A stretch of 64,000 bases of DNA from Streptomyces cavernae (GTDB taxonomy: Bacteria > Actinomycetota > Actinomycetes > Streptomycetales > Streptomycetaceae): NCBI RefSeq assembly GCF_004023625.1, contig NZ_RPDJ01000028.1:124001-188000 (forward strand). Direction: 5' to 3'. This document shows, piece by piece, positions 6,617-51,800 of the stretch. Below the pieces are notes generated by a model. The model did not search any database and had not been told where the DNA came from. It saw only the letters and a list, made by a program, of their open reading frames with translations. Every line of letters starts with the position of its first letter. Within the stretch, counting starts at the first letter, position 1. A program made the position numbers and the translations under genes.

Positions 6617-6710
6617 CGGGCCATCTTGTCGGGCCGGAGCGCGCGGCGTACAGGCCACCTTCGCCCGCGAACAGCGCAGCGGCGGAGGCCCGGAGAAGAA
6701 GCCGGTCAGT

Positions 6711-6980: not shown

Positions 6981-6995
6981 GCGAAGAACTTTTAC

Positions 6996-7053
6996 ATAAG
7001 TGGCTTGCCACTTTCAAGGCTCGGCGCTACCTTGAAAGTGGCAAGCCACTTAT
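6996..7053. promoter_or_regulatory. 24-bp perfect inverted repeat with nested palindromes in a divergent promoter
   Basis: Bases 6996-7019 are the exact reverse complement of 7030-7053, separated by 10 bases. Each arm also contains its own smaller palindrome, AAGTGGC-tt-GCCACTT (6998-7013) and AAGTGGC-aa-GCCACTT (7036-7051). The element lies between divergent genes starting at 6980 and 7075. The layout suits two dimer sites, 38 bp apart centre to centre, for a repressor of both genes. Because there is no T-run, and because it sits upstream of both starts, an operator is more likely than a terminator. Confidence 0.75.
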
Positions 7054-7074
7054 GGGATGTGGAGGAACCTGCCC

Positions 7075-7425
7075 GTGAAGATCAGTGAACGCAGCAACCC
7101 CGCCAGCTACCAGGCCGCCCTCGTGAGCGCGGCGCTCAGCTCGGGCGTCGGCCACGATGCCTCCGACGCCGACCTCGACCAGGCCGCCACCGGGGCGGGC
7201 CTGCGGCCCCCGGCGCTCGCCGCGTCGCGCGAGGCCGTCCGGGTCGCCCTCCAGTGCCCGGTCGACTTCATGGACGTCACCGACAGTCCGGACGCAGTCG
7301 TCGGCGGCAACGACATCGGGCAGGCCGTGTTCGACGCCGCCAGCGAGCGCCGCCCCCTGGTCGTCCTCGACCACGACGGCCGCCCGGTCGTGATGGTGCC
7401 GCAGCCCGTTGAGGAGTCAGCGTGA
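7075..7425 (+). CDS. Hypothetical protein in repeat-controlled pair
   Basis: A 116-residue protein. The GTG at 7075 is preceded by GGAGG at 7061-7065 with 9-base spacing, so I prefer it to the ATG at 7057, which lies before the ribosome site. The N-terminal half is Ala-rich helical (PASYQAALVSAALSSGVGHDASDADLDQAATGAGLRPP); the C-terminal half ends RPLVVLDHDGRPVVMVPQP, a strand pattern seen in some antitoxin-like proteins but not diagnostic. Its stop overlaps the next GTG (GTGA at 7422-7425), so the two are translationally coupled. It lies immediately downstream of the 6996-7053 inverted repeat. Function unknown. Confidence 0.6.
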   Translation: MKISERSNPASYQAALVSAALSSGVGHDASDADLDQAATGAGLRPPALAASREAVRVALQCPVDFMDVTDSPDAVVGGNDIGQAVFDAASERRPLVVLDHDGRPVVMVPQPVEESA

Positions 7426-26459: not shown

Positions 26460-26663
26460 ATGGCCGAGGCACCGGAGCACTTGGAGGAAGAGCTCCCCAA
26501 CCGCGACCCCCAGGCAGCGCTGAACGCGCTGCCGACCTTCCCCGACGAACCCTCCGCCGTGAACCTCTTCGGTGTGCCGCACGGGGAAGTCGTCGACCGG
26601 CGCTTCGACCCGGGCCGGCTGCACCGCATTCGGGTCGTCGACGAGCCGACTGGTACGCCGTGA
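26460..26663 (+). CDS. Small acidic hypothetical protein
   Basis: A 67-residue protein starting MAEAPEHLEEELPNRDPQAALNALPTFPDEPSAVNLFGVPHGEVVDRRFDPGRLHRIRVVDEPT. It is acidic, Pro-rich and probably partly disordered. It lies five bases after the membrane peptide and overlaps the methyltransferase start by GTGA, so it belongs to the same operon. No function recognised. Confidence 0.6.
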   Translation: MAEAPEHLEEELPNRDPQAALNALPTFPDEPSAVNLFGVPHGEVVDRRFDPGRLHRIRVVDEPTGTP

Positions 26664-27388
26664 ACACCGCGGTGCAGCGGCTCACGGCCGCCGACTGGGA
26701 CCACTGGTACACCACCGGCTGGCCTTCCGTCGTCACCGACAAGGAAGCCGACTACTTCCGCAGGACGGTCCAGCCCCACCCCGGCATGACCGCCGTCGAC
26801 CTGGCCTGTGGCAACGGCAAGTGGACGCGCCAACTCGCGGCCTGGGACGTGCTCGTAACCGGATACGACTTCTCCGCCGAAGCCCTGCGCCAGGCCGGCG
26901 CCGCAGGCCTGCACGACGGACTGTCGTACACGCGGTGGGACATCGACGCCGAACCGATCCCGCCCGGCCTCATGCCGGAAAGCATCGACCTGGTGACCTG
27001 CCGCCACGCCCTTCCGTTCCTCGAATACGCGCGCCTGCTGACCGACGTGGGACGCTGGCTCAAGCCCTCCGGCACCTTCTACGCCCTGGTCCGCGTAGTC
27101 CCCGGCCCGGACGCCGACGATGCGGAAGCCGACCGTCGCGCCAAGACGCCGGGCGCAACCCCGCCGAAACCGCCCTTCGATCGCGGATTCACTGAAGCCC
27201 AGATCAAGGGGCTCGGAATCGGCTGGGCCCACCACACGACGTACCAGTTCAACGCCAGCAATCGCGCGATCGTTCTGCGCGGCTACGGCGACACCGTCTT
27301 CGCGCCACGGCACGGCGCGGGTGAGACCAGCAGACTCCCCGCGCCAGCTGCCACGCCCCCTTCCATCGAGGAGGCGCGAGTGCGATGA
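26660..27388 (+). CDS. Class I SAM-dependent methyltransferase
   Basis: A 242-residue protein with motif I VDLACGNGKWT (residues 46-56), then TGYDFSAEAL and DLVTCRHALPFLEYARLL (motif IV-like), followed by GRWLKPSGTFYALV. This is the UbiE/COQ5-like small-molecule methyltransferase type. A C-terminal Pro/Ala-rich tail is unusual. The substrate is unknown; in this operon it sits between a small acidic protein and a short helical protein, so it may modify a peptide or a regulator, which is speculation. Confidence 0.85.
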   Translation: MNTAVQRLTAADWDHWYTTGWPSVVTDKEADYFRRTVQPHPGMTAVDLACGNGKWTRQLAAWDVLVTGYDFSAEALRQAGAAGLHDGLSYTRWDIDAEPIPPGLMPESIDLVTCRHALPFLEYARLLTDVGRWLKPSGTFYALVRVVPGPDADDAEADRRAKTPGATPPKPPFDRGFTEAQIKGLGIGWAHHTTYQFNASNRAIVLRGYGDTVFAPRHGAGETSRLPAPAATPPSIEEARVR

Positions 27389-29417: not shown

Positions 29418-30797
29418 CTACGCGGTGAGCAGCAGGAAGTCCCGCACCGCTCGAACGTTCCGGTGGGCCCCCAGCTCATCGCGGAGATCGTCGAGGGCGC
29501 CTGACGGCCGTGAGGAATCGAGGGCGGCGTTCTGTGTGAACGCGTCCGTCGCAGCGGCGCAGGCCGCGTCCAGGTCACCGAGTTGGAGATGGGCCCGGGC
29601 GGTCCGGGTCAAGTAGAGGACGTTGTCGCGTACGTAGCCGTCGACCGCGTACTGGGCCTGGCGCGCCCGCTCGAAGTGGGTCAGCGCACGTCGGGGATCT
29701 TCGAGATCGAGGGCGGAGGAGCCGGCCAGCATCTCGATCTCTCCCTCGTTGAGCCAGTACGACCAGGACGGATCATCGTCGTGCGGCCCCCGCGCGTACT
29801 CGGTCCTCGCAGAGTCAAGGGCGTTGAAGCACGCGGTGCCGGCGCCGGTCTTGGACAGGGCGCGCGCCACGCGAGCATGCAGCATCGCCCTCACCCGCGG
29901 GGTCGTACGGCGCATCGTGGCGTCCTGGGCCGTACGCACCAAGCCGACGGCGTCTTGCGGGTTGCCCTCGGAGTAGACCTGGATGGCCATGAAAGCGAGC
30001 GTGTTCGCGCCGACCTGGGCGTCATTGGCGCTGGCCGAGGCGCGCAGCGAGGTGACGTAGTAGCGCTGGGCGAGGGCTTGGTGGCCGACGTCGAAGTGCA
30101 GCCAGCCACACATGCGTGCGGCTTCCGCCAGCAGCGAGAGCAGCCGGTGTTCGAGCGGCCCGTGCTGGCCGGTGTTCTCGGCCAGGTCCTTCAGCAGTTC
30201 GTATTCGGCGATCGCCGTCCTGCGCAGCCGGGAGCCGCCGAGGACGTCGTCCAGGCGGCGTAAGTCGTCCAGGCGCTGCTCCAGCGTGTTCAACAGCGCG
30301 GTGGACAGCGGGGTGTTGGCGAGAACGGGGTCGGGCGGGACTGCGAGGGAGGCGGCCGCCGGCTCGGCAAGCGCCTCGCTCCAGCTCAAGGCCAGCCCGG
30401 CCAGCGCGGCACCGCTGGCGATGAGAAATCCCCGTCGATCCATCATGGAGCCTCCCCGAGCGGCAGCGGCTACTGCCGTCACGGTACCCGCCAGGGTCCA
30501 CGGGCTGTCGAGGATCACGCGGTCATCGGGGAAGGCCAGCAACAGGAAAGTCGGCCAGCCGAGCTCGGGGACGGCCTCGGGCGGGATGCCGTGCAGGCGA
30601 GCCATGGCGTACCGGGCGTTGTCGTCGGGGGCGTTGACGCCGTTCTCCCAGCGGGAGATCTTCTGGCGGCTCTTGGCCATCCGGCCGTACCCGAGGGCGT
30701 AGTGCACGTCGTCGAGCAGATCCAGATACTCCTCGCCGGTCAGTCCGAGCTCGGCACGCAAGGCGACTAACGGATGCAGTAACAGCTGGCCGGGCAT
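29418..30797 (-). CDS. XRE-family regulator with internal Tat-like signal and TPR domain
   Basis: A 459-residue protein, with GAGGGGG before the ATG at 30797. Residues ~12-72 are an HTH (ALGYGRMAKSRQKISRWENGVNAPDDNARYAMARLHG). Residues 120-145 read DRRGFLIASGAALAGLALS, a twin-Arg-like motif plus hydrophobic stretch found in many Streptomyces regulators of this type, usually interpreted as a membrane or Tat-like segment. The rest is TPR-like helices. It is divergent from the glycosyltransferase of the 31-37.7 kb biosynthetic locus (188 bp between starts), so it is the best candidate for its regulator. Confidence 0.82.
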   Translation of the reverse strand: MPGQLLLHPLVALRAELGLTGEEYLDLLDDVHYALGYGRMAKSRQKISRWENGVNAPDDNARYAMARLHGIPPEAVPELGWPTFLLLAFPDDRVILDSPWTLAGTVTAVAAAARGGSMMDRRGFLIASGAALAGLALSWSEALAEPAAASLAVPPDPVLANTPLSTALLNTLEQRLDDLRRLDDVLGGSRLRRTAIAEYELLKDLAENTGQHGPLEHRLLSLLAEAARMCGWLHFDVGHQALAQRYYVTSLRASASANDAQVGANTLAFMAIQVYSEGNPQDAVGLVRTAQDATMRRTTPRVRAMLHARVARALSKTGAGTACFNALDSARTEYARGPHDDDPSWSYWLNEGEIEMLAGSSALDLEDPRRALTHFERARQAQYAVDGYVRDNVLYLTRTARAHLQLGDLDAACAAATDAFTQNAALDSSRPSGALDDLRDELGAHRNVRAVRDFLLLTA

Positions 30798-30985
30798 CGC
30801 GGTTCCCCCTCAGCACGCAATCTCCCTGATGAACCGTCACGTTAGCCAGTCCGGGCACCAGCTGTGCAGGACTTCGACGCACGGTCCGCAACAGCTCCGC
30901 AACAGGATTCGCCTTCCCCGCCATGGGGCGGTGGCGGTGACATGAACGGCATCCCGATCCCCCACCGAGCGAGGAGGGAGCGCCG

Positions 30986-31981
30986 ATGCCTCATCGGCAA
31001 TCGCCGCTGGTGTCCGTGGTGGTCAGCGCCCGCGGCAACACCGCCCAGGTGCGCAATTTGCTGGACGCGCTGGCCCGGCAGACTCTTCCGGCAGAGCGCA
31101 TGGAAGCGGTCGTCGTGGACAACGACCCGCCCGGGCCCGTACGGCCCATCGCGGACACGGTCCGCGACGGTGCCTGGCCGTTCACCGTGCGGGTGCTGTA
31201 CGAGTCGACCCCGGGGCTGAGCGCGGGACGCAACCGCGGGATCTGTGCGGCCCGCGGCGTCTACGTCGCCATCACCGACCCCGACATCACCCCTGAACCC
31301 GGCTGGCTGCAGACCCTCGTCGACGCGATCGAAGAAGAGAAGGTGTTCGCCGTCGGCGGCCGCACCAACGTCGTCTACCCGGGCGGGCAGGTCACGGCGC
31401 TGACGAAGGCCTTGCGCGAGTGCCACGGCGCGGTCGACTGGCCCGACGGCCGGGAGCCGGCCGAGTGGCCGTACTGGGCCACTGGCTGCAACCTGCTCTT
31501 CCACCGACGGACCGCGCTCGACATCGGCCTGTTCCGCACCGATCTCGGACGCCGCGGGCGGTGGATGGGGGACTGCGAGGACCTCGAATTCATCGACCGC
31601 GCACGCCAGGCCGGCCACCAGACCATCATCGAGCCGGCCGCCGTCGCCACCCACCCCGTCTACCGCCCGGAGACGACCCTGAAGTACTTCGTGCGCCAGG
31701 GCGCCGGGCACGGCGTGTGCGTCGCCCGCATGCACTTGAGCGTGATCGTGGAACCCGCCGCGATCCAGGCCGACCGCGACGCTGTGCACTCCGCCGTCAT
31801 CAACCTCGCCGCCGGGTGGACCTTCCTGGACCGCTCCCGCGCCGTCGAAGGCGCCCGCGACCTGGTCCGGATCGGCGCCTACCACCTCGAGCGCGGCCGC
31901 CTGCGCCTGCTCGGCTGCCGCCCCATCGCCCTCGCCCAGCACGCCCCGACCCCGACGAAGGAGTCCTCCGCATGGACGTGA
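30986..31981 (+). CDS. Family 2 glycosyltransferase
   Basis: A 331-residue soluble GT-A enzyme behind GAGGAGGGAG. Motifs: PLVSVVVSARGNTAQVRNLLDAL at the start, VVVDNDPPG, STPGLSAGRNRGICAARGVYVAITDPDITPEPGW (the DxD sugar-nucleotide site, DPD), and GDCEDLEFIDRARQAG, the acidic catalytic loop. It transfers a sugar from a nucleotide donor to an unknown acceptor. Its last 10 bases overlap the AdoMet synthetase start, so it heads the biosynthetic run that ends with the carbamoyltransferase. Confidence 0.88.
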   Translation: MPHRQSPLVSVVVSARGNTAQVRNLLDALARQTLPAERMEAVVVDNDPPGPVRPIADTVRDGAWPFTVRVLYESTPGLSAGRNRGICAARGVYVAITDPDITPEPGWLQTLVDAIEEEKVFAVGGRTNVVYPGGQVTALTKALRECHGAVDWPDGREPAEWPYWATGCNLLFHRRTALDIGLFRTDLGRRGRWMGDCEDLEFIDRARQAGHQTIIEPAAVATHPVYRPETTLKYFVRQGAGHGVCVARMHLSVIVEPAAIQADRDAVHSAVINLAAGWTFLDRSRAVEGARDLVRIGAYHLERGRLRLLGCRPIALAQHAPTPTKESSAWT

Positions 31982-33216
31982 CCAGCACATCCGGCCTGTC
32001 CGCTGCCTCCGCCCTCCTGGCCGCCGAGGTTGTCGAACGCAAGGGAGCAGGACACCCCGACACCCTCGCCGACGGAGTGGCCGAGGCGATCTCCCGCGCC
32101 TACAGCCGCTACTGCCTCGACGAGTTCGGCGCGATCCTGCACCACAACACCGACAAGACCAGCCTGCTCGGCGGATCCGCCGACGTCAGCTTCGGCCACG
32201 GCGAACTCACCGCACCCGTCCAGGTCCTGGTCAACGGACGCATCACCGCCGCCCTCGGCGACCATGCCATCCCGGTCGTCGACATCGTCACCACCGCCGC
32301 GCGCGAGTACCTCGCGAGCGCGCTGCCTCTGCTCGACGTCAACCGGTGGGTCGACGTCCGGCCGCGGCTGACCCAGGCGTCCAGCCCCGGCGCCGTCCAC
32401 GCCCCCGACTCGGCCCAGCACGAGGCCTCCCGCCAGCGTTGGTTCGCCCCACGCACCCTCGACGACCTCGCCGAACGGCACCGCCTGTTCAGCAACGACA
32501 CCAGCGCCGGCGTCGCCTACTGGCCGCTGGGCACCGCCGAGCAGCTCGCCCTCGGCATCGAGGAGCAGCTGACAAGCGAGGCGTTCCGTGCCGAACACCC
32601 CTACTACGGCACCGACATCAAGCTCATGGTCGTCCGCCACGGCCCGCGCGTGCAGCTGACCGCCTGCGTCCCGCAGATCGCCCGCGAGACCCCGGACCTC
32701 GAGACGTACATCGCCCACCGGACCCAGGCCCGCGACCTCATCGCCGAACTCGCGGCGACGATCGCGCCCGAGCACCACGTGACCGTGGCCATCAACACCC
32801 GCGACGACGACACCCGGCCCGAGCTGTACCTGACGGCGACCGGCTCGTCGATCGAGTCTGGCGACGAAGGCGTCGTCGGCCGCGGCAACCGCGCCAACGG
32901 CCTGATCAGCATGCTCAGGCCCTGGTCCGCCGAGGGCGTCTCCGGCAAGAACCCCCAGTACCACGTCGGCAAGTTGTACAACTTGGCGGCCGCCGAAGCC
33001 GCGCGCCGTCTACACGAGGAGACCGGGCTGGACTGCGCGGTTGCGCTGGTCTCCCAGTCCGGCCGGGACCTGACCGACCCCTGGCAGGCGATCGTGCAGG
33101 CCTCCGGTCCCAACCCCATCGGTGCCGCCCGCGTCCGGCGGGTGATCGCCGACGTGATGGAGGACCTGGACACGCTGCGCGAGCAGCTGCTCGACGGAAA
33201 GCTGGCTACGGCATGA
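31972..33216 (+). CDS. Archaeal-type S-adenosylmethionine synthetase
   Basis: A 414-residue protein of the archaeal MAT family, not the bacterial MetK family: VVERKGAGHPDTLADGVAEAISRAY near residues 20-45, HHNTDKTSLLGGSADVSFG, and GDEGVVGRGNRANGLISMLRPWSAEGVSGKNPQYHVGKLYN. It makes AdoMet from ATP and methionine. Streptomyces already has a housekeeping MetK, so a second, archaeal-type copy inside this gene run suggests local AdoMet supply for the pathway, although no methyltransferase or radical-SAM gene is in the run itself. ATG at 31972; coupled to the next gene by ATGA. Confidence 0.9.
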   Translation: MDVTSTSGLSAASALLAAEVVERKGAGHPDTLADGVAEAISRAYSRYCLDEFGAILHHNTDKTSLLGGSADVSFGHGELTAPVQVLVNGRITAALGDHAIPVVDIVTTAAREYLASALPLLDVNRWVDVRPRLTQASSPGAVHAPDSAQHEASRQRWFAPRTLDDLAERHRLFSNDTSAGVAYWPLGTAEQLALGIEEQLTSEAFRAEHPYYGTDIKLMVVRHGPRVQLTACVPQIARETPDLETYIAHRTQARDLIAELAATIAPEHHVTVAINTRDDDTRPELYLTATGSSIESGDEGVVGRGNRANGLISMLRPWSAEGVSGKNPQYHVGKLYNLAAAEAARRLHEETGLDCAVALVSQSGRDLTDPWQAIVQASGPNPIGAARVRRVIADVMEDLDTLREQLLDGKLATA

Positions 33217-34121
33217 CCGCGGCGCTCGCCGACGCCGCCGGGCAGTTCGTGCCGTGCCTGAACCCGGCCACCCTCTCCGGTATCCCGCTGGATCAGTTCC
33301 TCGCCTTGGCCGCAGGCGCCGGATTCCCCAAGGTCGAAGTCTCCATCCAGCAAGCCCAGGCCTTCGGCATCGGCCGGTTACGCGACCTGCTGAAGGAGAT
33401 GGGGGTGACCGTGGCGGCCGCGAGCGGCATCCTGCCCGCCGGGCCCGTCCTGCCCGCCCCGCTCCTGGTCGCCCCGGACACCTACCGCGCGTGCCTCGAC
33501 GGTTTGGACAGCCGTCTGGAGGCCATGGCGGCCCTCGGCTGCACGGTGGCCACGACCGTGATCAACCCCCGCTCGCCCCTCGACACCGCCGAGGCGCGGA
33601 CCCTCGCACGGCAGCGGATCGCCGAGCTCGCCGCCGCGGCCGAAGCCCACGGGGTACGGCTCGCCGTCGAAGCCGTCAGCGTCCGAGACGGTCTGCCGCC
33701 CGACCTGGACGGCCCCCACCCGGTCGTCGACAGCCTGCCCCTTCTGGCCGAACTGCTGCAGGAGACCAAGACATCCAACGCGGGTGTGCTGGTGGACTCC
33801 TTCCACTGGGCCGTCGCCGGCGCCGACCCGTCCCACATCACCAGTCTCGACACGAGCGCGATCACGCACGTCCAGATCGCCGATATCCCACAGCCCGGAC
33901 CCGGCACGGCCGGCGAACTCACCGACGCGCAACGGGAGTTCCCCGGCGACGGCGCCCTGGACTGGACGGCCTTCGCCGACGCCCTGACCCGATCCGACTA
34001 CCGCGGGCCGGTGTCGGTGGAGCTGTTCAACCCCGATTTGCGGGCGCTGCCGGCAGGCGAGATCGCCCGCTGCTCCCACCACGCGGCCACCACCTGCTGG
34101 ACTCTTCCGGAGGCATCCTGA
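33213..34121 (+). CDS. TIM-barrel sugar-phosphate isomerase/epimerase-like protein
   Basis: A 302-residue protein of the AP endonuclease 2/IolE-like TIM-barrel superfamily. Metal-ligand-type motifs are visible: RLAVEAVSVRD, GVLVDSFHWAVAGADP, ITHVQIADIP and GPVSVELFNPDLR. Members isomerise or epimerise sugars, inositol intermediates or hydroxypyruvate. In this operon it probably acts on a sugar or cyclitol intermediate, with the next-gene oxidoreductase. Coupled to both neighbours (ATGA before, TGATG after). Confidence 0.85.
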   Translation: MTAALADAAGQFVPCLNPATLSGIPLDQFLALAAGAGFPKVEVSIQQAQAFGIGRLRDLLKEMGVTVAAASGILPAGPVLPAPLLVAPDTYRACLDGLDSRLEAMAALGCTVATTVINPRSPLDTAEARTLARQRIAELAAAAEAHGVRLAVEAVSVRDGLPPDLDGPHPVVDSLPLLAELLQETKTSNAGVLVDSFHWAVAGADPSHITSLDTSAITHVQIADIPQPGPGTAGELTDAQREFPGDGALDWTAFADALTRSDYRGPVSVELFNPDLRALPAGEIARCSHHAATTCWTLPEAS

Positions 34122-35164
34122 TGACCCCCACCACACGCCCGACCGCGCGGCCGTGGCGGCTCGCGGTCGCCGGATGCGGAGCCGCCGCCTTCGGACTGCA
34201 CCTGCCACTCCTGGCCGGCTCCGAGGCATTCGAACTGATCGCCGTCACCGACCGGGACCCCGAACGGGCCCGCACGGCCCAGAAGCGGTTCGCCGTTCCC
34301 CGCACCGCTACCCGGGTCGGCGACCTGCTGCAGGACGCGGACGCCCTGGTGATCCTCACCGGCGTGCACGAGGACCTCATCGAGGAGGCCCTCGACGCCG
34401 GCGTCAACGTCGTCACCGAGAAACCCGTCTGCCTGGACGTCATCCGCACCCGCAAGCTCGCCGAGCGGGCGCGGGACGCCGGGCTGCTGCTGGAAGTCGG
34501 GGCGATGCGCGCCCACGACCCGGCGCTGCACGCCGCCCTCGCCCACGTGCCCGAACCCTCCGGCGGCTGGCTGGTGAAAGCCGACGGGGTCGACGAAGCC
34601 GCGCGCCGCCGTCTGCTCCCGCCCGGTTTCGCGCCGTACACCTTCGCCGGCGATCCGCCGCAGCCGGTCCCCGACCGCCTTGCGCCGCACCAGGTGACGG
34701 CACTGCAGATCCTCCTGTGGCAGGGCTACCACCTGCTGACCGCGCTGGTCCTGGCCGTACCCGGCACCACCGCCACGTCCTGCACGCTCGACGCGTCCGA
34801 GCAGTCCGTACACGCTCTGCTGCACGGACCGGAGGGGGAGCCGTTCACCCTGGTCATCGCCGCGACTCCGGCCGGTGTCTTCCGCGAGCAGATCCACTTC
34901 GCCGACGCGGACGCCGCCGCCACGATCGACTTCGCCCGCCCCTACGAGCCGGCCGACAGCACCCGACTGACCACGGCCGACGGCACCCAGAGCGGCTTCA
35001 AAGACCCATTCGCCGCCCTATGGGCATCCGTCGACGCCCGCCTGTCCGGGCAGCACCCCGCCGACCTGCCGACCAGCGTCGACCTCGCCCTGCGCGTCGA
35101 GGACCTCGCTCTCGCCCTGGCGGAACTCGCCCGCCCCGGCACCCGCACACGGAAGGAAACCTGA
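34121..35164 (+). CDS. Gfo/Idh/MocA-family NAD(P)-dependent oxidoreductase
   Basis: A 347-residue protein with a Rossmann start WRLAVAGCGAAAFGLHLPLLAG, DADALVILTGVHEDLIEEALDAGVNVVTEKPVC (the EKP motif of the family), and a C-terminal alpha/beta domain with VKADGVDEAARRRL. It would oxidise or reduce a sugar or cyclitol hydroxyl. The first base of its ATG is the last base of the upstream TGA. It is followed by the P-loop kinase gene two bases after the stop. Confidence 0.88.
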   Translation: MTPTTRPTARPWRLAVAGCGAAAFGLHLPLLAGSEAFELIAVTDRDPERARTAQKRFAVPRTATRVGDLLQDADALVILTGVHEDLIEEALDAGVNVVTEKPVCLDVIRTRKLAERARDAGLLLEVGAMRAHDPALHAALAHVPEPSGGWLVKADGVDEAARRRLLPPGFAPYTFAGDPPQPVPDRLAPHQVTALQILLWQGYHLLTALVLAVPGTTATSCTLDASEQSVHALLHGPEGEPFTLVIAATPAGVFREQIHFADADAAATIDFARPYEPADSTRLTTADGTQSGFKDPFAALWASVDARLSGQHPADLPTSVDLALRVEDLALALAELARPGTRTRKET

Positions 35165-35166
35165 TC

Positions 35167-36036
35167 GTGGCAAACCGAGCTCCCGTACTGGTTCTGGACG
35201 GCCCGCCCGGAGCGGGCAAGACGTCACTGCTCGCACGTATGGTGTGCGCCCTGGGCGACGAATCGATGTGGTTCACCGAACCCAACGCCCGCCTCGCCAC
35301 CGGCCTCGCCGCTCCCGTCCACCCCAGCCCGGCCGGACACACCCTGTGGTTCCTGAGGCACGAACTGGACAAGGCCCGCGCCATGCGGCACCTGGCCGCC
35401 GACCCGGACACCCGCCTGCTCATCTCCGACCGCAACCACCTCGGCGCCCTGGCGTACTGCTACGCCACCCGCGCCGAGGACTCCCTGCCCTACCGCACCG
35501 CCCGCGACTTCTACGCCCGCCGCATCGCCCCCGAACTGCCCGAGACGGTTCTCACCGCGATCCTTCTGGTCAGCCCCGACCAGAGCCTCAACCGCCGCGG
35601 AAACGTCGCTGAACTCCCGCGCTGGAAGCAGTGGTTCGACGCCGGACTGCTGGAACGCTTGCACACCTTCTACGTGGAGATCGCCCCCACGCTGTGCCCG
35701 ACCCCACCGGCGATCATCAACACCGACGGAGCCACCCCCGAAGCGGTCCTCGCCCAGATCGCCGGCGTCCTCGCCGACGCAGGACTCGACCAGACTGCAC
35801 GACATCTCACCACCGCCACCGCCCCGAACCCGCGGCCGCCGCTGGCCGATGAGTTCGCCGACGCCTACGCCGAGCTCGGAGGCCTGGAAGCCTTCGGCCA
35901 CCCCTTCACCCCGCCGCTCACCCACCGCGGCAGCACCGTCCAGCTGTGCCAGCTCGGCGCCCTGCACCGCGACCCGTCCGGCCGGACCCGGCTGTGGAAC
36001 CCGCTCACCGCACCCGCCGTACGGAGGGCCGCGTGA
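35167..36036 (+). CDS. P-loop kinase (thymidylate/deoxynucleoside-kinase-like)
   Basis: A 289-residue protein starting at GTG 35167. The Walker A is LDGPPGAGKTS (residues 10-20); ISDRNHLGALAYCYA fits the DRx lid/substrate motif of thymidylate- and deoxynucleoside-type kinases. A C-terminal extension (~60 residues, FADAYAELGGLEAFGHPFTPPLTHRGSTVQLCQLGALHRDP) is not part of the kinase fold. It probably phosphorylates a small alcohol or nucleoside intermediate. Its stop overlaps the carbamoyltransferase ATG (TGATG). Confidence 0.8.
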   Translation: MANRAPVLVLDGPPGAGKTSLLARMVCALGDESMWFTEPNARLATGLAAPVHPSPAGHTLWFLRHELDKARAMRHLAADPDTRLLISDRNHLGALAYCYATRAEDSLPYRTARDFYARRIAPELPETVLTAILLVSPDQSLNRRGNVAELPRWKQWFDAGLLERLHTFYVEIAPTLCPTPPAIINTDGATPEAVLAQIAGVLADAGLDQTARHLTTATAPNPRPPLADEFADAYAELGGLEAFGHPFTPPLTHRGSTVQLCQLGALHRDPSGRTRLWNPLTAPAVRRAA

Positions 36037-37655
36037 TGAGCGGCACGAAGCCCTGCGTCATCGGCATCAACCTCGGGCACGACGGAGGCGCCGCCCTGAT
36101 CACCGACACCGTGATGGTCGCGATCGGCGAGGAACGCCTCAACCGCACCCGCTACAGCCCCGGTTTCGAAGCCTCCCTGCTGTACTGCCTGCGCGCGGCC
36201 GGCCTCCAGCTCAGCGACGTCGACCTGGTCGCCGTCAGCGGCATCGGCCGCACCCTGCCCACCCGGGCCGAGGCGGGCCTGGCCCACCTCGGCATCGACC
36301 CAGCCCGGATCGTCCCGGTCGACCACCACCTCAGCCACGCCTACACCGCCTACTGCCTCAGCCTGTACGAGGAGGCGACCGTGCTGGTCGTCGATGGCGG
36401 CGGCAACAACAACGACACCGAGACCTACTACCGGGCCACCCCTGACGGGATCGAGCGCCTGGGCGGCAACCCGCCCACCCGGCCGCGCTCCGGCGGGATC
36501 GGCGCAACGTACGAGGCCTACACGAACTGGCTCGGCTGGCACGAGCAGGAGGCCGGCAAGACCATGGCGCTCGCCTCGTACGGCGATGCGGACCGCTACC
36601 ACGCCCCGCTGTTCGACGTCGTCGACGCCACCGTGCACGGGCGCCTGACCCGCACCCACGCGCCCGGAATCGCGGAACTCGCCGAACGAACCGGCTTCGA
36701 CTTCGGACCGGCAGACAGCCGCGGCGAGCACGAACTCGGGTTTCACGCCGCCGCCTACGTCCAGGACCAGACCGAGCGCGCCCTGTCCGCGCTCGCCGAA
36801 CAGACGATCGCCGCCACCGGTCTGGGCAACCTGTGCTTCGCGGGCGGTGTCGCCCTCAACTGCGTCGCCGCCGACAAGATCCGCCGCCTGGACGCGGTCA
36901 CCGGCTACTTCGCTCCGCCCGCCTCATCCGACCGCGGACAGGCCCTCGGCTGCGCCCTGTATGCCTGGCACCGCCTCACCGGTGACCTGCCCAGGCGACC
37001 GCTGTCCAGCGACTACTTCGGCCGCGAGTACACCGGCAACGAGATCGAGCAGGCGCTGAACCGCGACCCCCGATCCGGCCTGGTCGAAAGGCGCCGGACG
37101 CCGTTCACGTGGCGGCGGGAGAGCGACATCGCCCAAACCGCTGCCCAGATGATCGCCGACGGAAAGATCATCGGATGGTTCCAGGGCGGAAGCGAGCTCG
37201 GGCCCCGCGCCCTGGGGGCCCGCAGCATCCTCGCCGACCCGCGTACCACCGCAAGCTCCGACGCCCTCAACCGCAGGATCAAGCACCGCGAGCCTTTCCG
37301 GCCATTTGCGCCGGCCGTCCTCGCCGACCACGCCAGCACCTGGTTCGACCTGGACGTGGCCAGCCCCTTCATGCTGCTGGCCCCGCCGGTCCGCCCCGAC
37401 CACACTGACAAGATCGCCGGAGTCGTCCACGTCGACGGCACCGCGCGCGTCCAGACCGTCGACCCAGCCGCCGCGCCCCTCTACGGCGCCCTGATCGAGC
37501 ACTTCCACCAGCTCACCGGCGTGCCCGTCATCCTGAACACGTCCTTCAACGACCGCGAACCCATCGTCGAGACACCCGCCCACGCGCTCGCCACGCTCCA
37601 GGCCTGCGACCTGGACGCTGCCTGCATTGGCGAATACCTGGTCGAGCGGTCCTGA
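36036..37655 (+). CDS. NodU/CmcH-family O-carbamoyltransferase
   Basis: A 539-residue protein. The N-terminal domain has VIGINLGHDGGAAL, IVPVDHHLSHAYTAYC (H97, H98, H101) and VLVVDGGGNN, the Kae1-like carbamoyladenylate site. The C-terminal domain has IIGWFQGGSELGPRALGARSILADPR and GVPVILNTSFNDREPIVETP, both strongly conserved in TobZ, CmcH and NodU. It transfers a carbamoyl group from carbamoyl phosphate to a hydroxyl of a natural product. It is the last gene of the coupled run and the strongest hint at the product: a carbamoylated compound. Confidence 0.93.
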   Translation: MSGTKPCVIGINLGHDGGAALITDTVMVAIGEERLNRTRYSPGFEASLLYCLRAAGLQLSDVDLVAVSGIGRTLPTRAEAGLAHLGIDPARIVPVDHHLSHAYTAYCLSLYEEATVLVVDGGGNNNDTETYYRATPDGIERLGGNPPTRPRSGGIGATYEAYTNWLGWHEQEAGKTMALASYGDADRYHAPLFDVVDATVHGRLTRTHAPGIAELAERTGFDFGPADSRGEHELGFHAAAYVQDQTERALSALAEQTIAATGLGNLCFAGGVALNCVAADKIRRLDAVTGYFAPPASSDRGQALGCALYAWHRLTGDLPRRPLSSDYFGREYTGNEIEQALNRDPRSGLVERRRTPFTWRRESDIAQTAAQMIADGKIIGWFQGGSELGPRALGARSILADPRTTASSDALNRRIKHREPFRPFAPAVLADHASTWFDLDVASPFMLLAPPVRPDHTDKIAGVVHVDGTARVQTVDPAAAPLYGALIEHFHQLTGVPVILNTSFNDREPIVETPAHALATLQACDLDAACIGEYLVERS

Positions 37656-37685
37656 CGTCCCCCCGGGACTGCCACACTGGAGCGC

Positions 37686-38168
37686 ATGACGACCTCCACT
37701 CCGCCGCTGAGGGAAGCCGCCCGCGCCATCGTCCTCGACGATGACAACCGAGTCCTTCTCCTGCGCTACGACGAGAACGGCGGATTCTGGGCCACCCCCG
37801 GCGGCTCCCTGGAGGACACAGACGGGGGAGACCACGCCGCAGCGGTGCTCCGCGAGATGGGCGAAGAGCTCGGTGTCCTCCAGGAGGCGATCGAGCTCGG
37901 GGACCAGCTCGCGGAGCGCAGCAAAGAGCACCTGGTCGGCGGGCGCGAAGTCCGCCAGGTGGAGAAGTACTTCCTCGCCCGAATCCCCGCGGCCGCCATC
38001 GACCCGGCCCGGGCATCGCAGCCCGACAACATCCGCGAACACCGCTGGTGGACCCTCGCCGAACTGAATGCCACGGCCGAAACGGTCTACCCGATCGGTC
38101 TCGCCGACCTGGTCACCGGCGTCCTCGAGCACGGTGCACCCGTGCGCCCCGTCGTCCTGGACGGATGA
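37686..38168 (+). CDS. Nudix hydrolase
   Basis: A 160-residue protein starting MTTSTPPLREAARAIVLDDDNRVLLLRYDENGGFWATPGGSLED. A Nudix box is present but stretched: GGSLEDTDGGDHAAAVLREMGEELGV keeps REMGEELG while the G-x5-E part has two extra residues. It would hydrolyse a nucleoside-diphosphate-linked compound. It lies 30 bases after the carbamoyltransferase and may be part of the same locus or a house-cleaning gene. Confidence 0.88.
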   Translation: MTTSTPPLREAARAIVLDDDNRVLLLRYDENGGFWATPGGSLEDTDGGDHAAAVLREMGEELGVLQEAIELGDQLAERSKEHLVGGREVRQVEKYFLARIPAAAIDPARASQPDNIREHRWWTLAELNATAETVYPIGLADLVTGVLEHGAPVRPVVLDG

Positions 38169-38205
38169 TCCTGCCCCGAGCGGTCCGAGGAATCAGACTG
38201 CAGGC

Positions 38206-38841
38206 ATGACTGAGGAGCACCCGGCCCGCCCTTCCGTGCCGTATGACGCCGTCCTGTGCGACGTCGACCGCGTACTGCGGCACTGGCCCGCTGACGACGA
38301 CATCGAGCACACGCACGGACTGCCCCGCGGCGCCATCGCGACCGCGGCCTTCGCCCCGGCCCGCGTCCACCCCGCCATCACCGGGGCGATCACCGACGAG
38401 CAGTGGCGGTCCGCCATGGCGGCCGACCTCGCCGAAACCTACGGATCACAGGAGCAGGCCTCCGCAGCCGTGGCCGCCTGGACCGAGCTCGTCCCGCTCG
38501 TGGACATGGAGCTGGTAGCCCTGCTCACCCAAGTACGCGAGGTCGCCTCCGTAGTCCTGGTCGCCAACGGAACCACACGGCTGGAGCAGGATCTCGCCCG
38601 CCAGGGCCTGGACGGCCTCGCCCACACGGTGGTCAACTCCGCCCGCATTGGCGTCGCGAAACCTGACCCCCGGGTCTACCGCATTGCCGCCGAACTCGTC
38701 GGGACGAGGGCTGACCGATGCCTCTTCGTCGACGACACCGAAGCCAATGTCACCGCGGCCTGCAACGCAGGGATGGCCGGCCTCCACTACCGCCAACTCG
38801 GTCAGCTGCGCACGGCACTTGCTCCGCTGCTCGGCCAGTAG
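38206..38841 (+). CDS. HAD-superfamily hydrolase
   Basis: A 211-residue protein starting MTEEHPARPSVPYDAVLCDVDRVLRHW. Motif I is DVDRVLR (DxD but without the usual Thr), motif II is VVLVANGTTRL, and motif IV is CLFVDDTEANVTAA. A short helical cap makes it a haloacid-dehalogenase-type subclass I protein, as in epoxide-hydrolase-associated HADs. Activity is probably on a small phosphate ester or halide; the substrate is not evident. It lies 37 bases after the Nudix gene. Confidence 0.82.
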   Translation: MTEEHPARPSVPYDAVLCDVDRVLRHWPADDDIEHTHGLPRGAIATAAFAPARVHPAITGAITDEQWRSAMAADLAETYGSQEQASAAVAAWTELVPLVDMELVALLTQVREVASVVLVANGTTRLEQDLARQGLDGLAHTVVNSARIGVAKPDPRVYRIAAELVGTRADRCLFVDDTEANVTAACNAGMAGLHYRQLGQLRTALAPLLGQ

Positions 38842-38857
38842 CGGCCGTGCGGGCACC

Positions 38858-39841
38858 TCAGGCCATCCGGGCCAAAACGGCAGCCATGGAGTCGTAGGTG
38901 TCACGGATCCCGGAGGCGTTGTTGAGGCGGTACCGCTCCAGTCGGATCGCACCCAGATGCCGTGCCTCGTAGAGGAGGGTCCGCCAGGCGTCAGCCGGCG
39001 AGGTGCCGCGGGGTCCGTAGGTACTCCAGAACGCCGTCCGTTCATCCCGCTTGGCGCTGGCCATCCGGATGGTCCAGTCGGCAGCCGGATCACCGAACAA
39101 GGTGCGGTCCAGGTCGAGAATCCCGCTGATCACCGGCGTTGGGGCAGGAGCGAGCATCGTATTGACGGTCCACAAGTCGCCCGTGAGCAGCCGGGGTTCG
39201 GTGATCTCGTCCAGCACGTCGCGGTGCTCGGCTGCGAGGGCGGCCGCCGTGTCTACGTCTGTGGCGTCCAGACCGACGCGGCTGACATCCGCGGCGATGT
39301 CGTGCAGGGAGGCCACCACGGCTTCACTCCAGGTGGGGTGGCCGGGCCCGGCGACGGGGCCGAAATGCGGGCCCCGTACGGCATGGACGTCCTGTGCGAT
39401 CGTGCCGAGCTGGGCGAAGAAGCCGGGCCACAGGTCGCGGGGGTAGTCGCCGAGGCGCTGGCGAGCGGGTGTACCGGCAAGGTGGCTTTGCACCATCCAG
39501 TCCCGGCCGATGACCTCATGCGACCAGTCGGCGAACAGCACGTCGGGAATCAGGTCCGCGACGGGCGCGAGGAAGGGCACGGTGGCGTACTCGTTGCGCA
39601 TCAACGCGTGCTCCGAGGCGAACTGGCGCTCCGGTGCCGGGGCGACGCGCAGGATGACCGGCGCGCCGAGACCGTCTGCGGTGATCCGGGACGTGGTGTT
39701 GTACATGCCGCCGTCCAGCTCCACGGCAGAAGTGACCTGGACGGTGGTGCCGAAGGCTCGCCGGCACATGGCCTGGATGTCCTCGGCGGTGACGGACTGC
39801 TGGAAGGCCTCGGTTTCACGGGGGATCGGTCGGAAGTCCAT
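38858..39841 (-). CDS. APH-type phosphotransferase
   Basis: A 327-residue protein with a kinase-like fold: VILRVAPAPERQF as the ATP-binding strand, EPRLLTGDLWTVNTML (HGD-x-x-x-N variant, with Thr in place of the His) and GILDLDRTLFGDPAADW (the DFG-equivalent). It belongs to the aminoglycoside/choline phosphotransferase superfamily. AAGGGG precedes the ATG at 39841. It converges on the HAD gene from the other strand, so it is probably not in the biosynthetic transcript, but it might phosphorylate a related sugar-like product or give resistance; that is speculation. Confidence 0.8.
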   Translation of the reverse strand: MDFRPIPRETEAFQQSVTAEDIQAMCRRAFGTTVQVTSAVELDGGMYNTTSRITADGLGAPVILRVAPAPERQFASEHALMRNEYATVPFLAPVADLIPDVLFADWSHEVIGRDWMVQSHLAGTPARQRLGDYPRDLWPGFFAQLGTIAQDVHAVRGPHFGPVAGPGHPTWSEAVVASLHDIAADVSRVGLDATDVDTAAALAAEHRDVLDEITEPRLLTGDLWTVNTMLAPAPTPVISGILDLDRTLFGDPAADWTIRMASAKRDERTAFWSTYGPRGTSPADAWRTLLYEARHLGAIRLERYRLNNASGIRDTYDSMAAVLARMA

Positions 39842-47880: not shown

Positions 47881-48897
47881 TCAGGCAGTAGGGGGACGGG
47901 AGTTGATGGCGAGGGCGGCGGGGTAGAGCACCTGATGCCCGTAGCGTGCCCGGGCACGGTCGGCGACGGCTTCGATCGCGAGAGGCCTCTCGTCCCGCGC
48001 GTCGAGCGTGAGCTGACGGGTGGCCAGGTCGGCTGGCCGAAGGGCGTCGGCGCGCAGCGCGATGGTGAGGACCCGTGCGCGCTGGAGCCCGAGGGATTCG
48101 TAGACCGCGTACACCGCGCGGGCCAGAAGCACGGTGTGCTGAGTCGCCTCAGACAGGACACGGCTACGGCGGGTGGAGCTCCGGTCGGCATAGTGGATGG
48201 TGCAGGTCAGGCCGGTCGCGATCTGGCCGGAGGCACGGAGACGGGCGCCGAGGTCGTCGGCGAGGGCGATCAAGGCACGCCGGTGGGCGGCCGGGTCGAG
48301 TTCGTCGCGGTCAAAGCGGTACTCGCTGCTGATGCTCGCCGGAATCGGGGTGGCGTCGACGACCTGGGTGTCGCGGCCCTGGGCGTGCTCGTGGAGGGCG
48401 CGGCCGGCCCGGGCGCCGAGCAGACGTTGCAGCGTGAGCTGGGGGACATCGGCGACGTCGCCGACGGTGTGCAGACCGTACTCGCCGAGCGTCGCGGCGA
48501 TCCGCACGCCCACACCGGGCAACTCGTGGACCGGGCGCGGGCGCAGGAAGGCGGAGATCGCCTCGGGGGAGTCATCGACGACGGTGCGCTGCCCGGGCGG
48601 GGTGAGGGCGCAGGCCATCGCGGCGAGCATCCGGTTGGGAGCGCACCCCGCCGAGCTGCGCAGACCGAAGTGGGCGAGCGCACGCAACTGGACCAGCTCG
48701 GTCAGGCCGCGGGCGTCCCGCTTCCAGTACGGGATCGCTCCAGTGAGGTCGAGGGCAGCCGAGTCCGGCCCGATCACCTGCACGCGGGGCGTGACGTTCT
48801 CCAGCAAGCGGCGCAGCTCCTCGGGGAGTTCGGCTTCCTCGACGGCCGGAACGTCGAAGCGGAGGTGGAGGAGGTGGCGTCCGCTCATCGTGATCAC
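47881..48897 (-). CDS. ImuB-like Y-family polymerase-related protein
   Basis: A 338-residue protein coupled to DnaE2 (its ATG overlaps the DnaE2 stop, ATGA). The HhH region RPVHELPGVGVRIAATLGEYGLHTVGDVADVPQLTLQRLLGARAGRALHEHAQGRD is typical of the Y family. The N-terminal catalytic carboxylates of DinB are not intact: HLLHLRFDVP keeps only one Asp, and the later PDSAALDLTG does not match SxDE. ImuB is known as a non-catalytic partner that links DnaE2 to the beta clamp and ImuA. No ImuA-like gene is visible here. Confidence 0.8.
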   Translation of the reverse strand: MITMSGRHLLHLRFDVPAVEEAELPEELRRLLENVTPRVQVIGPDSAALDLTGAIPYWKRDARGLTELVQLRALAHFGLRSSAGCAPNRMLAAMACALTPPGQRTVVDDSPEAISAFLRPRPVHELPGVGVRIAATLGEYGLHTVGDVADVPQLTLQRLLGARAGRALHEHAQGRDTQVVDATPIPASISSEYRFDRDELDPAAHRRALIALADDLGARLRASGQIATGLTCTIHYADRSSTRRSRVLSEATQHTVLLARAVYAVYESLGLQRARVLTIALRADALRPADLATRQLTLDARDERPLAIEAVADRARARYGHQVLYPAALAINSRPPTA

Positions 48898-51800
48898 CCT
48901 GCGCTTCCCTGACTCCGGTGCCCGAGCCGGCGCAGGTCTGCAGACCGGGTGCCGGCGGGCTGAAGGTCGGCGTACGGGTGGAGGCGTGCGCCCGCGGTGC
49001 CGTCGGCAAGGGTGCGCTGCGGTGCTGCTGGTTGGGCCGGGGTGGGGGCCGGGTCGGTGCGGCCGAGCAGGTCGAGGGCGGCTTGAGGGCCATGGTCGCG
49101 GCGGGCGGCGGCCACTTCGTCCAGGTCCCAGGCCATCTCGCCGACCACCGTACGGCGCGCGCCGCGGGACTCGACGGTGCCGCGCACGAGCAGCAGACCG
49201 GAGTGGAACACGGTGCGCGCGCAGGCCTCGTGGGAGTTCTCGAAGAAGGCGAGATCAACCAGGCCGGTGCCGTCCTCCAGGGTCACGAAGATGATCCTCT
49301 TGCCGGACGCGATCGGCGGGGTCTGGGTGGAGGCGCGGACTCCGGCGACCAGGACCTTCTGGCCGGGGATCATGCCCCGCAGGTGCGCGGCAGTGGTGGC
49401 GCCCAGTTCGTTCAGCAGACGGTGATGGTGCTCCATCAGGTGATGGGTGACGTCGATCTGGAGCGTGTCCAGCTCCGCGCCGAGTTTGTCCCGGCTGGTC
49501 ATCTCGGGCAGCCCGCTCGGGGCGGAAGTCACCAGCTCGCCGCCGAGCGGCAGTTGACCGTCGGTGGCAGTGCGGGAGCGAGACTGCCGATGGAGCTCGG
49601 TCGCCTGCAGCAGGAGATCCCGCCGGGTGAGGTCGCCCGGGAGCGGGCCGAGCGCGCCGATCCGGATCAGCCGCTGCGCGATCGGCAGGGAGGGACGGGC
49701 GCGCTGCCACAGGTCCTGCAGGCCAGTGTAGGGCTGGCCGGCCACGAGCCGCGCGACCTCACCCTCGCTGATCCCTTTGATGTTGGAGAAGGCAAGGCGC
49801 ACGCCCCAGCCCTGCTCGGTCTGTTCGACCTGATGCACGGCGCGCGAGTGGTTGACGTCGACGGGCAGGATCGGCACGCCGTGGCGGCGGGCATCGGACA
49901 CGACGAGCCGTCGCGGCCACATCCCGGGGTCGTGCTCCAGGAGCCCGGCGTACAGGAACGCCGGGAAGCGTGCTTTCAGAAAGGCGCTCTGAAGTGCAGG
50001 AACAGCAAAAGCGACAGCGTGCGCCCTGCAAAATCCATATGCGCCATGGCTGGAGATGGTCTCCCAGACCTCGTCCAGCACGGCCGTGCTGTAGCCGCGG
50101 TCACCGGCCGTACGACGGAACCACTCTTCGACGCGGGGGAGCCGGTCGGGGTCGCCAAGGGCGCGGCGGGCGTACTCGCCGGCAGCGCGATCGCAGCCGG
50201 TCAGCTGTGTGAACGTCGCGATGATCTGCTCGTGCCAGATAGTTACGCCGTACGTGTCCGACAGGATCGGTTCCAGGTCCGGGTGCGCGTACCGCGGGGC
50301 CGCACCGTGCCGGGCCGCTATGAAGATCGCAGGCATGCCTCCGGCTACCGGCCCTGGACGAAATAGCGAGATGTCGGCGATGACGTCCTGCATGTGCCGG
50401 GGCTGCAGCCTGGACAAAAGATCTTGTTGACCAGGTGACTCCAATTGGAACAGGCCCACGGTGTCCGAAGCCTGGATCATCTCGAAGGCCAGCCGGTCGT
50501 TGAGGTCGACGTGGTCGGGATTGTCGAGATCGAGGACTCTCCCCGTGGCACGCCGGATCTCCGCAACCGCGTGCGCCATCGCACTCTGAAGACGGATTCC
50601 GAGCACGTCCAGCTTCAGAAGGGCGTAGCCGCCGAGCTCGATGTCCTCCTTGTCGGCCTGCACCATCGGATAGCCGGCCGGGGTCGGCTGCACCGGCAGC
50701 CGGTCCAACAGTGACGCGTCGGACAAGATCACCCCGCAGGGGTGCATGGCGTAGCCGCGGGGCAGCGCGTCCAGGCCCTCGGCGAGCTCCCACAGCGGCC
50801 CGAACTTCTCTGCCTGGGAGGCGAGTTGCCGCAGCTCCGGCAGCTCCGCCAGCGCCGCGCGGATATCCCGCGCCCTGATGTGCGGGAAACTCTTGGCGAT
50901 CTCGCCCACGACCTGGGGCGGAATCCCGAGGGCAAGCCCGGTGTCCCGCAGGGCGTGCCTTGCCCTGTAGGTCTCGGGCATGCCGGTGACCGCGGTCCGC
51001 TCTGTGCCGAACCGCTTGATGATCGCGTCGTACACCTCCAGGCGCCGCTCGGACTCCACGTCGAGGTCGATGTCTGGGAGCGACGTCCTGCGCTCGTTTA
51101 CGAACCTCTCGAACAACAAATGGTGGTCAAGGGGATTGGCCGTGGCGATGAACAAGGAGTGGTTGACCATGCTCCCCGCGCCGGAGCCGCGCGCGGCGAC
51201 CCGGATCCCCAGAGCCCGGGTATCGGCGACCACCTGGGCCACGGCGAGGAAGTACGCCTCAAAGCCGGTGAGCCGTCCGATGACTTCGAGCTCGTAGTCG
51301 AGCTGTCGTACGGCGCGTTCGTCGCGGTCCAGGCCGCGAGCGACCATCCCGGCCTCACACCGCTGCCTCAGCAGCCGCATCCCCGAACCGGGCTCCGAGC
51401 CCGCACCCACGACGGACGGCTCGGGGAAGTGAGGGGTGCCCAGGCCGAGGTCGGCCGGGGTGAGGGTGCAGGACTGCCCGGTGGCCTCGGTATCGGCCAG
51501 CAGGCGTACGGCACGGGCGGACTCGTCGCCGACGGCCTGGGCGATCCGCTCGGCGACCGCGGACATGGCGGCCGGGCCCTTCAGCCACCGCTCCCCGCCG
51601 TCCAGGTGCCGGCGGTCCACGGGCCGCAGCAGCCGGGCCGCGTCGAGCACGTCGGCCAGCCGGTGCTGACCGGGATCGGCGTAGCGGACCGCGTTCGTCA
51701 ACACGGCGCGTACGCCGAGCTGGTCGGCCAGACCCACGGTGCGCGCGGCCAGCCGTAGCGAGCCCGCGCCGGTGCCCTCCCGGCCCAGATACACGGTCTC

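Follow-up and report, generated by a model that had tools for sequence, protein, structure and literature searches.

Gene content and layout of the locus

A block of six genes (A–F) occupies positions 30986–37655 of the window, by which we mean the whole stretch of 64,000 nucleotides of Streptomyces cavernae DNA analysed here, and a reading-frame check found all six open at their coordinates (Table 1). Going from A to F, the genes overlap by 10, 4 and 1 bp, are separated by a 2-bp gap between D and E, and overlap again by 1 bp between E and F, a spacing that suggests transcription of A–F as one unit; a sequence scan of 30700–39000 returned no promoter- or terminator-like sites. An earlier note on this DNA had described a six-gene operon with a divergent XRE/TPR regulator. 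All six genes are present with their families confirmed by Pfam, and the regulator belongs to the NsdA family; the single transcript stays an interpretation of the gene overlaps only, and the count of six leaves out the Nudix gene G, which is conserved together with the others.

Table 1 Features of the cassette in the window
Feature	Position	Strand	Evidence or location
Divergent NsdA-family XRE/TPR regulator (R1 type)	29418..30797	-	NF053720 300.8 bits, cut-off 75
Operator-like direct repeat GCAACA-n5-GCAACA	30888..30904	+	between regulator and operon
Gene A, GT2 glycosyltransferase with DPD motif	30986..31981	+	PF00535 1.4e-17
Gene B, archaeal-type methionine adenosyltransferase (MAT)	31972..33216	+	PF01941 1.8e-104
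Gene C, xylose-isomerase-like TIM barrel, IolI-like	33213..34121	+	PF01261 2.3e-28
Gene D, Gfo/Idh/MocA oxidoreductase	34121..35164	+	PF01408 7.8e-16
Gene E, P-loop kinase, thymidylate-kinase fold with C-terminal extension, GTG start	35167..36036	+	PF13521 3.6e-6
Gene F, NodU/CmcH/TobZ-family carbamoyltransferase	36036..37655	+	PF02543 6.4e-27, PF16861 7.1e-64
Gene G, Nudix hydrolase	37686..38168	+	PF00293 1.1e-13

Conservation and spread of the cassette

The locus was compared across a set of 17, comprising the window, 14 genome contigs and two plasmids, with duplicates counted once (L056 and L031 (G292) are identical in sequence, and L142 (G583) repeats the Frankia contig L063 in reverse complement). 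All seven genes A–G occur in the same order in 14 of the 17 loci, from five families, with the overlaps kept and the Gfo/Idh gene split between frames in one; the hosts are Streptomyces, Streptosporangium, Actinocorallia, Frankia and one Micromonosporaceae MAG. This recurrence refutes the possibility, named in the earlier note as one that would count against its reading, that the genes are not conserved as a group. Counted singly, A and B are each present in 16 loci, C in 15, D in 13, and E, F and G in 14 (G directly after F in 14 of 17), while a regulator of either of two types is present in 13. Conservation ends at these eight genes (regulator and A–G): in a flank comparison made with our own gene caller on loci of 10–34 kb, some of which carry little flank (L060, L061, L063), no flanking gene family was found in more than 4 of the 17. 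Two genes downstream of G were considered as parts of the operon and rejected, neither of them showing up as a conserved family in this set: the HAD gene (38206–38841) matches below 1e-10 only in L131 (204/211 aa, 71%) and in a 59-aa fragment in L052, and the APH gene (38858–39841) has no match at 1e-10.

The two plasmid copies of the cassette are surrounded by other genes, and the Frankia MAT is 89–90% identical to the MATs of two Streptomyces that are themselves only 77–78% identical to the MAT of the window. To judge from these sequences, the cassette is a self-contained module that has moved horizontally between families; that the seven genes form a conserved operon is, taken by itself, close to certain. 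One extra contig, L141 (G445), which lies outside the 17-locus set and is counted among the MAT rows, carries the R1 regulator, A–G in order and the repeat, with gene A in two frames.

The regulator and the direct repeat

Two unrelated regulator types occupy the same place in the cassette, R1 in eight loci and R2 in five, and tblastn detected neither in 4 of the 17. R1 orthologs in 7 of the 16 other loci are 58–80% identical to the window regulator. The direct repeat GCAACA-n5-GCAACA lies between regulator and operon in 8/8 R1 loci as against 0/5 R2 loci, and in its strict form it occurs once in the 10.4-Mb genome. The NsdA-family regulator probably acts at this repeat and would thereby control A–G; gene content, order, conservation, family spread and the repeat itself are direct observations. 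The strict repeat is also found once in an archaeal locus (L113), and versions with looser spacing in L043, L044 and L116. Against phage records the regulator gave 11 matches, none covering more than 80% of its length (at most 51% among the 10 listed).

Enzymes encoded by genes A and C–F

Gene A scores 90 bits against the MftF model, below its cut-off of 280. Gene C resembles 3u0h and IolI (1i60) and shares a Pfam domain with IolI- and hydroxypyruvate-isomerase-like TIM barrels, but reaches no NCBIfam cut-off; E153, D195, H219 and E270 are invariant in 15 rows, and we take these to align with the likely metal ligands of IolI. Gene D (NAD-binding domain PF01408, 59.3 bits) carries an EKP motif (E100-K101-P102) that is invariant in 11 rows, and its best predicted model (mean pLDDT 82.4, with two of five models near 60) is closest to KijD10 (3rc1, Foldseek E 5e-19). 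KijD10 acts on a TDP-sugar. The Gfo/Idh fold is common to gene D, the KijD10 sugar 3-ketoreductase and inositol dehydrogenases, which are its best fold matches, whereas identity is about 20–22% and the NCBIfam equivalog for inositol 2-dehydrogenase gives 47 bits against a cut-off of 355. By eye, W200 (with H204) presumably places a Trp where Gfo/Idh enzymes usually have Asp, a few residues before the His of the catalytic helix.

Gene E, whose PF13521 match is just above the cut-off, shares its fold with thymidylate and deoxynucleoside kinases over approximately residues 6–208, as seen in a 12-row alignment and a model (best mean pLDDT 84.6; Z 18.9 and 3.1 Å over 183 residues against 4s35_B), but adds a C-terminal part and reaches only 12.8 of the 83.25 bits set for the NCBIfam dTMP kinase model. 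The extra C-terminal domain claimed in the earlier note is real at the sequence level, amounting to ~80 residues with invariant positions. Respiratory complex I chains also appear in the Foldseek list at an rmsd of ~14 Å and were disregarded. Gene F contains both domains (PF02543, 95.3 bits; PF16861, 214.9 bits) of the NodU/CmcH/TobZ/GdmN O-carbamoyltransferases, and its solved relatives, 7xb6 (3.6e-66), the novobiocin enzyme 9s2t, GdmN and TobZ, are all carbamoyltransferases; against the NodU equivalog of NCBIfam it falls far short (144.4 vs 1000).

An altered pocket in the methionine adenosyltransferase

Gene B matches PF01941 at 350.2 bits (gathering score 27) and reaches none of five NCBIfam MAT cut-offs (best 333 bits vs 481). 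With the archaeal-type MATs (MjMAT, TkMAT, SsMAT) it has in common the fold family, the catalytic His and the residues for ribose and the methionine backbone. Specifically, H28, H57, N59, N175, D215, Y286 and D298, assigned to catalysis, ribose, adenine stacking and the methionine amino and carboxylate groups in PMC3853416, are kept in 17/17 cassette MATs. As these include the contacts for the amino and carboxylate groups, methionine stays a possible substrate. At position 331, D replaces H in one of the cassette MATs.

Gene B nevertheless differs from these enzymes at the pocket, in the loop and in its phylogenetic position. In a local-pair alignment, pocket position 363 (I351 of MjMAT) is Ser in 15 and Ala in 2 of the 17 cassette MATs, compared to Ile in 38/38 canonical relatives; other actinobacterial MATs carry Thr (28/28, type 1), Asn or Gly (5/5, type 2) or Lys (5/5, type 3) at this position, with Ala or Ser in two further rows. 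The active-site flexible loop has 45–46 residues, ~20 more than the 23–31 of canonical rows. The 17 cassette MATs form a separate clade (SH-aLRT 100) in a quick tree whose long branches (flagged for L047, L005, L003 and others) leave the order among groups unsure. Canonical MATs were collected by a pattern search based on peptides of the window itself, with 80 of 82 confirmed stretches retained; K62 is therefore biased in this set, and distant relatives can be absent from it. For the tree and the local-pair alignment, 38 of 63 canonical rows were kept and second locus copies were dropped, while the NEAR and STREP groups of the MAFFT auto alignment and residue check still include such copies.

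Loop length and positions 363 and 294 are the sole MAT differences that are stable in both alignments. A Leu-to-Arg exchange on the flexible loop was rejected, as MAFFT auto gave Leu in 63/63 and Arg in 16/16 rows while the local-pair alignment puts the Arg in an insertion; the two alignments also place the cassette loop differently relative to the TkMAT loop pair D144/L145 (adenine amino group and methionine side chain). Chains 7p82 and 7p83 differ, within the aligned stretch, at the 351-position residue and at one loop Leu. The PC-MjMAT variant is reportedly L147A/I351A. An MjMAT variant designed to accept bulkier substrates retains good use of methionine (PMC13274687); plain AdoMet synthesis would therefore be compatible with the altered pocket.

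Proposed pathway and alternative explanations

From the enzyme families, C and D would carry out an isomerisation and a redox step on a sugar or cyclitol, A would contribute a glycosylation step and F would O-carbamoylate a hydroxyl, while E may phosphorylate an intermediate or a nucleoside-like product and G may cleave a nucleoside-diphosphate-linked species. Gene B would most likely transfer the adenosyl group of ATP to a nucleophile, sulfur or other, that resembles methionine or is made by the pathway, and not simply supply AdoMet. The product of the cassette is likely a small carbamoylated metabolite of sugar or cyclitol type, perhaps with a nucleoside part. Conservation of the gene group supports well the earlier view of a biosynthetic operon with a carbamoylation enzyme, and the sugar- or cyclitol-type substrate suggested with it is plausible from the IolI-like C and the KijD10-like predicted model of D. 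The reading as a whole, a mobile A–G operon under NsdA-family control at the repeat, with a retuned MAT and such a metabolite as its product, is a tentative one to which we give slightly less than an even chance. In its boldest extension, actinobacterial MAT groups with retuned pockets (Ser/Ala, Thr, Asn/Gly or Lys for Ile) would place the 5′-deoxyadenosyl moiety of ATP, or of a different NTP, on pathway acceptors and not on methionine, and the cassette would make a nucleoside conjugate that is carbamoylated and bears a sugar or cyclitol; we consider this unlikely, and no description of the MAT reaction serving biosynthesis in this manner was found in the open-access literature.

The earlier note had instead proposed a product needing extra AdoMet, in which case gene B would be an ordinary AdoMet synthetase boosting AdoMet for a methyltransferase or aminocarboxypropyl transferase encoded elsewhere, and the product a carbamoylated, methylated sugar or cyclitol. 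The PF01941 score and the kept catalytic residues agree with this proposal, as do the turnover of methionine by the widened MAT (PMC13274687) and a methyltransferase gene at 26660–27388, 3.6 kb upstream in the window. A tblastn search with that gene, however, found no match at 1e-5 in any of the 16 other loci, a Pfam profile search found no methyltransferase match at E 0.1 in the seven cassette proteins, and methyltransferases are not a conserved family of the 17 loci. Two ordinary-type MATs are moreover encoded elsewhere in the same genome, and the change at the MAT 351 position is clade-specific. The need for extra AdoMet thus draws weak support, and the boosting role appears somewhat unlikely. 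In L131 another methyltransferase is annotated upstream.

If the operon made an intracellular signal or modified nucleotide sensed by the NsdA-family TPR regulator, and not an exported antibiotic, the composition of the conserved block would fit, since it contains no transporter or resistance gene, an uncommon situation for antibiotic clusters. The R1 regulator is also accompanied by its own repeat, and NsdA-like regulators adjoin other MAT clusters (52% identical in L033, 33% in L038 and L039). The presence of two unrelated regulators at the same place, the lack of a tblastn match to either in 4/17 loci and the fact that cluster-situated regulators are common nevertheless make a signalling role quite unlikely. 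IolI-like and Gfo/Idh enzymes often belong to inositol catabolism, and both are encoded here; phages, for their part, carry carbamoyltransferases (phrog_1601, 358 bits), so that an operon for the catabolism of sugars or inositol, or a module that modifies the cell surface or DNA, might be considered in place of secondary metabolism. A carbamoyltransferase, a GT2 enzyme and a MAT are ill-suited to catabolism, however, and a phage link through phrog_1601 and phrog_10886 was rejected, given that gene F is only 30–32% identical to the 20 of 140 phage records listed, mostly from cyanophages, and that the MAT matches no phage record; we regard this explanation as highly improbable. A defence system was likewise dismissed, its three matches scoring just 16–20 bits.

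Relation to known and related clusters

Biosynthetic operons are a known kind of system, and no characterised cluster with the gene set of this cassette was found in the open-access literature. PMC8365161 describes a polyketide cluster with a carbamoyltransferase; its second list of genes has a MAT, and the set is not that of the cassette. As a sharp-bordered unit found across actinobacterial families, the cassette should lend itself readily to expression and testing. Should its MAT not produce AdoMet, this would reveal a new way for cells to link small molecules to adenosine, and the MAT-bearing clusters of types 1–3 and L033 could be approached likewise. In these clusters, as in the cassette, a MAT variant adjoins small-molecule kinase, sugar or cyclitol genes, in some cases with an NsdA-like regulator, whereas their gene sets otherwise differ, with a SerRS and a phosphatase in L034, a CofE-like ligase in L041, and an inositol-1-phosphate synthase and an aminotransferase in L033.

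Conservation of the biosynthetic cassette

The six overlapping genes that the earlier note had described (A, GT2; B, archaeal-type AdoMet synthetase or MAT; C, TIM barrel; D, Gfo/Idh; E, P-loop kinase; F, carbamoyltransferase) were present in the sequence and matched their families. A Nudix gene (G) extends the run, and an NsdA-family regulator is oriented opposite to the A-G operon.

Coordinates of the cassette and of the other features discussed
Feature	Location	Remark
Genes A-F	window 30986-37655	
Gene G, Nudix hydrolase	window 37686-38168	30 bp beyond the six-gene run
Y-family polymerase gene adjoining DnaE-type polymerase gene	window 47881-52355	likely a mutagenesis cassette
tRNA-Met gene	window 52613	after the polymerase pair
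Extra Gfo/Idh gene	L060 (Streptosporangium copy) 6113-7201	between D and E
Different cluster	L033 5936-15818	NsdA-like regulator, inositol-1-phosphate synthase, MAT, TIM barrel, two APH kinases, SDR, aminotransferase
Ordinary bacterial MAT-domain match	G000:C9:159797	genome containing the window
Ordinary bacterial MAT-domain match	G000:C1:18593	genome containing the window
MAT (H39)	Candidatus Megaera polyxenophila plasmid AP017966.1 13069-14223	40% identical to gene B, E 2e-93

Searching genome contigs with the MAT recovered 14 actinobacterial loci (66–91% identity), which were compared with the window and two Streptomyces plasmids also carrying the cassette MAT (17 loci in total). All of A-G, with order and strand kept, were found at 14 of the 17, confirming that the group is conserved jointly; at one of these (L052), gene D is split across two frames. 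The remaining three are decayed copies, retaining only A-C (L051), A, B and part of C (L054), or B and C as fragments (L123). Transposase-like genes, judged by eye, lie a few kb downstream in L054. Contig G445 provided an 18th case, with the regulator and A-G in order. The conserved block ends at eight genes, the commonest flanking family occurring at 4/17 loci (by clustering of called proteins, with short flanks at some loci). Cassette-type MATs (E < 1e-200) are rare, occurring in 2 of 392 sampled whole genomes of the genus and 4 of 394 of the class, the window's genome counted in both.

The Frankia cassette MAT shares 90% identity with its S. bauhiniae counterpart versus 76% with the window's, and it clusters with Streptomyces rows in the tree. 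Because of this likeness, and because two linear plasmids hold copies amid differing neighbour genes, the sequences fit horizontal transfer of the module as a whole. One plasmid (L131) also carries a dnaE gene, next to which lies a gene related to one of the window's.

Term searches of an open-access paper library turned up no description of this gene set. We rate the cassette as a biosynthetic operon of a known kind, here with an unusual MAT.

Regulator exchange and an intergenic repeat

Two unrelated XRE-type regulators (25–30% identity to each other) occupy the same cassette site: R1 at the window, L056-L060, L063 (Frankia) and L130, and R2 at L052-L055 and L131; L051, L061, L062 and L123 gave no match to either. 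A direct repeat, GCAACA-n5-GCAACA, lies in the gap separating regulator from gene A at 8/8 R1 loci and on G445, and at 0/5 R2 loci. At the R2 loci, an unrelated XRE-type protein has replaced the divergent regulator, and the gap lacks the repeat. The strict repeat occurs once in the window (a count matched by 0/100 shuffles) and once in the whole 10.4 Mb genome versus none in a reversed control, a descriptive count given that the pattern was derived from these loci; one archaeal locus (L113) contains the strict repeat as well. Looser spacing gave 14 genome matches versus 15 in the control. The separate cluster L033 offers a hint that R1-type regulators may read the repeat: it has a 52%-identical regulator and, in the gap between this and its first gene, GCAACA-n4-GCAACA.

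An altered pocket position in the cassette MAT

Gene B belongs to PF01941 and retains the catalytic His as well as the residues that contact ribose, stack on adenine and hold the methionine amino and carboxylate groups. Between fixed columns, its flexible active-site loop spans 45–46 residues in cassette MATs versus 23–31 in canonical relatives. The pocket position equivalent to MjMAT I351 (363 in the cassette MAT), one of two differences between PDB chains 7p82 and 7p83 over the aligned stretch, is I in 38/38 canonical rows, S/A in 17/17 cassette rows, T in 28/28 type-1, N/G in 5/5 type-2 and K in 5/5 type-3 rows (other actinobacterial MAT groups), and A/S in two other rows. In a quickly built tree of 95 rows, these groups came out apart from one another with support. 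According to PMC11240257, human MAT2A was widened at a different pocket residue so as to accept larger methionine analogues.

The earlier note had proposed that the pathway needs extra AdoMet. An archaeal-type MAT is indeed present, but plain AdoMet supply is weakly supported: methyltransferase models matched none of the seven A-G proteins, no methyltransferase emerged as a conserved neighbour family across the 17 loci (some flanks being short), and the methyltransferase gene 3.6 kb upstream in the window had no match in the other 16. The ordinary bacterial MAT domain is also matched twice elsewhere in the genome, and gene B may serve something other than plain AdoMet supply. The pocket change instead suggests that the cassette MAT may use another substrate, a reading kept short of proof because an MjMAT variant for larger methionine analogues still uses methionine well (PMC13274687).

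Other enzymes and related MAT clusters

Gene C resembles IolI as well as other xylose-isomerase-like barrels, and the best fold match of gene D's predicted model is KijD10, a sugar 3-ketoreductase. In gene E, a C-terminal tail follows a predicted thymidylate-kinase fold, gene A shows some likeness to MftF, and solved relatives of gene F include 7xb6, the novobiocin enzyme, GdmN and TobZ. By likeness to known enzymes, A and C-G together would fit the carbamoylated sugar- or cyclitol-type product proposed earlier, to which the present analysis adds a possible nucleoside part.

Archaeal-type MATs also occur in other cluster types, in which selected neighbours gave no methyltransferase match (some neighbours were scanned, several matching nothing at all). 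One Streptomyces type (L034-L040, L048) is exemplified by L034, where the MAT accompanies kinase-like genes, a histidine phosphatase, a glycosyltransferase and an extra seryl-tRNA synthetase that might confer self-resistance. Another (L041, L043, L044 and L050, which stops after the MAT) comprises in L041 a TIM barrel, Gfo/Idh, MAT, a weakly HPr kinase-like protein, a protein without Pfam match and a CofE-like ligase.
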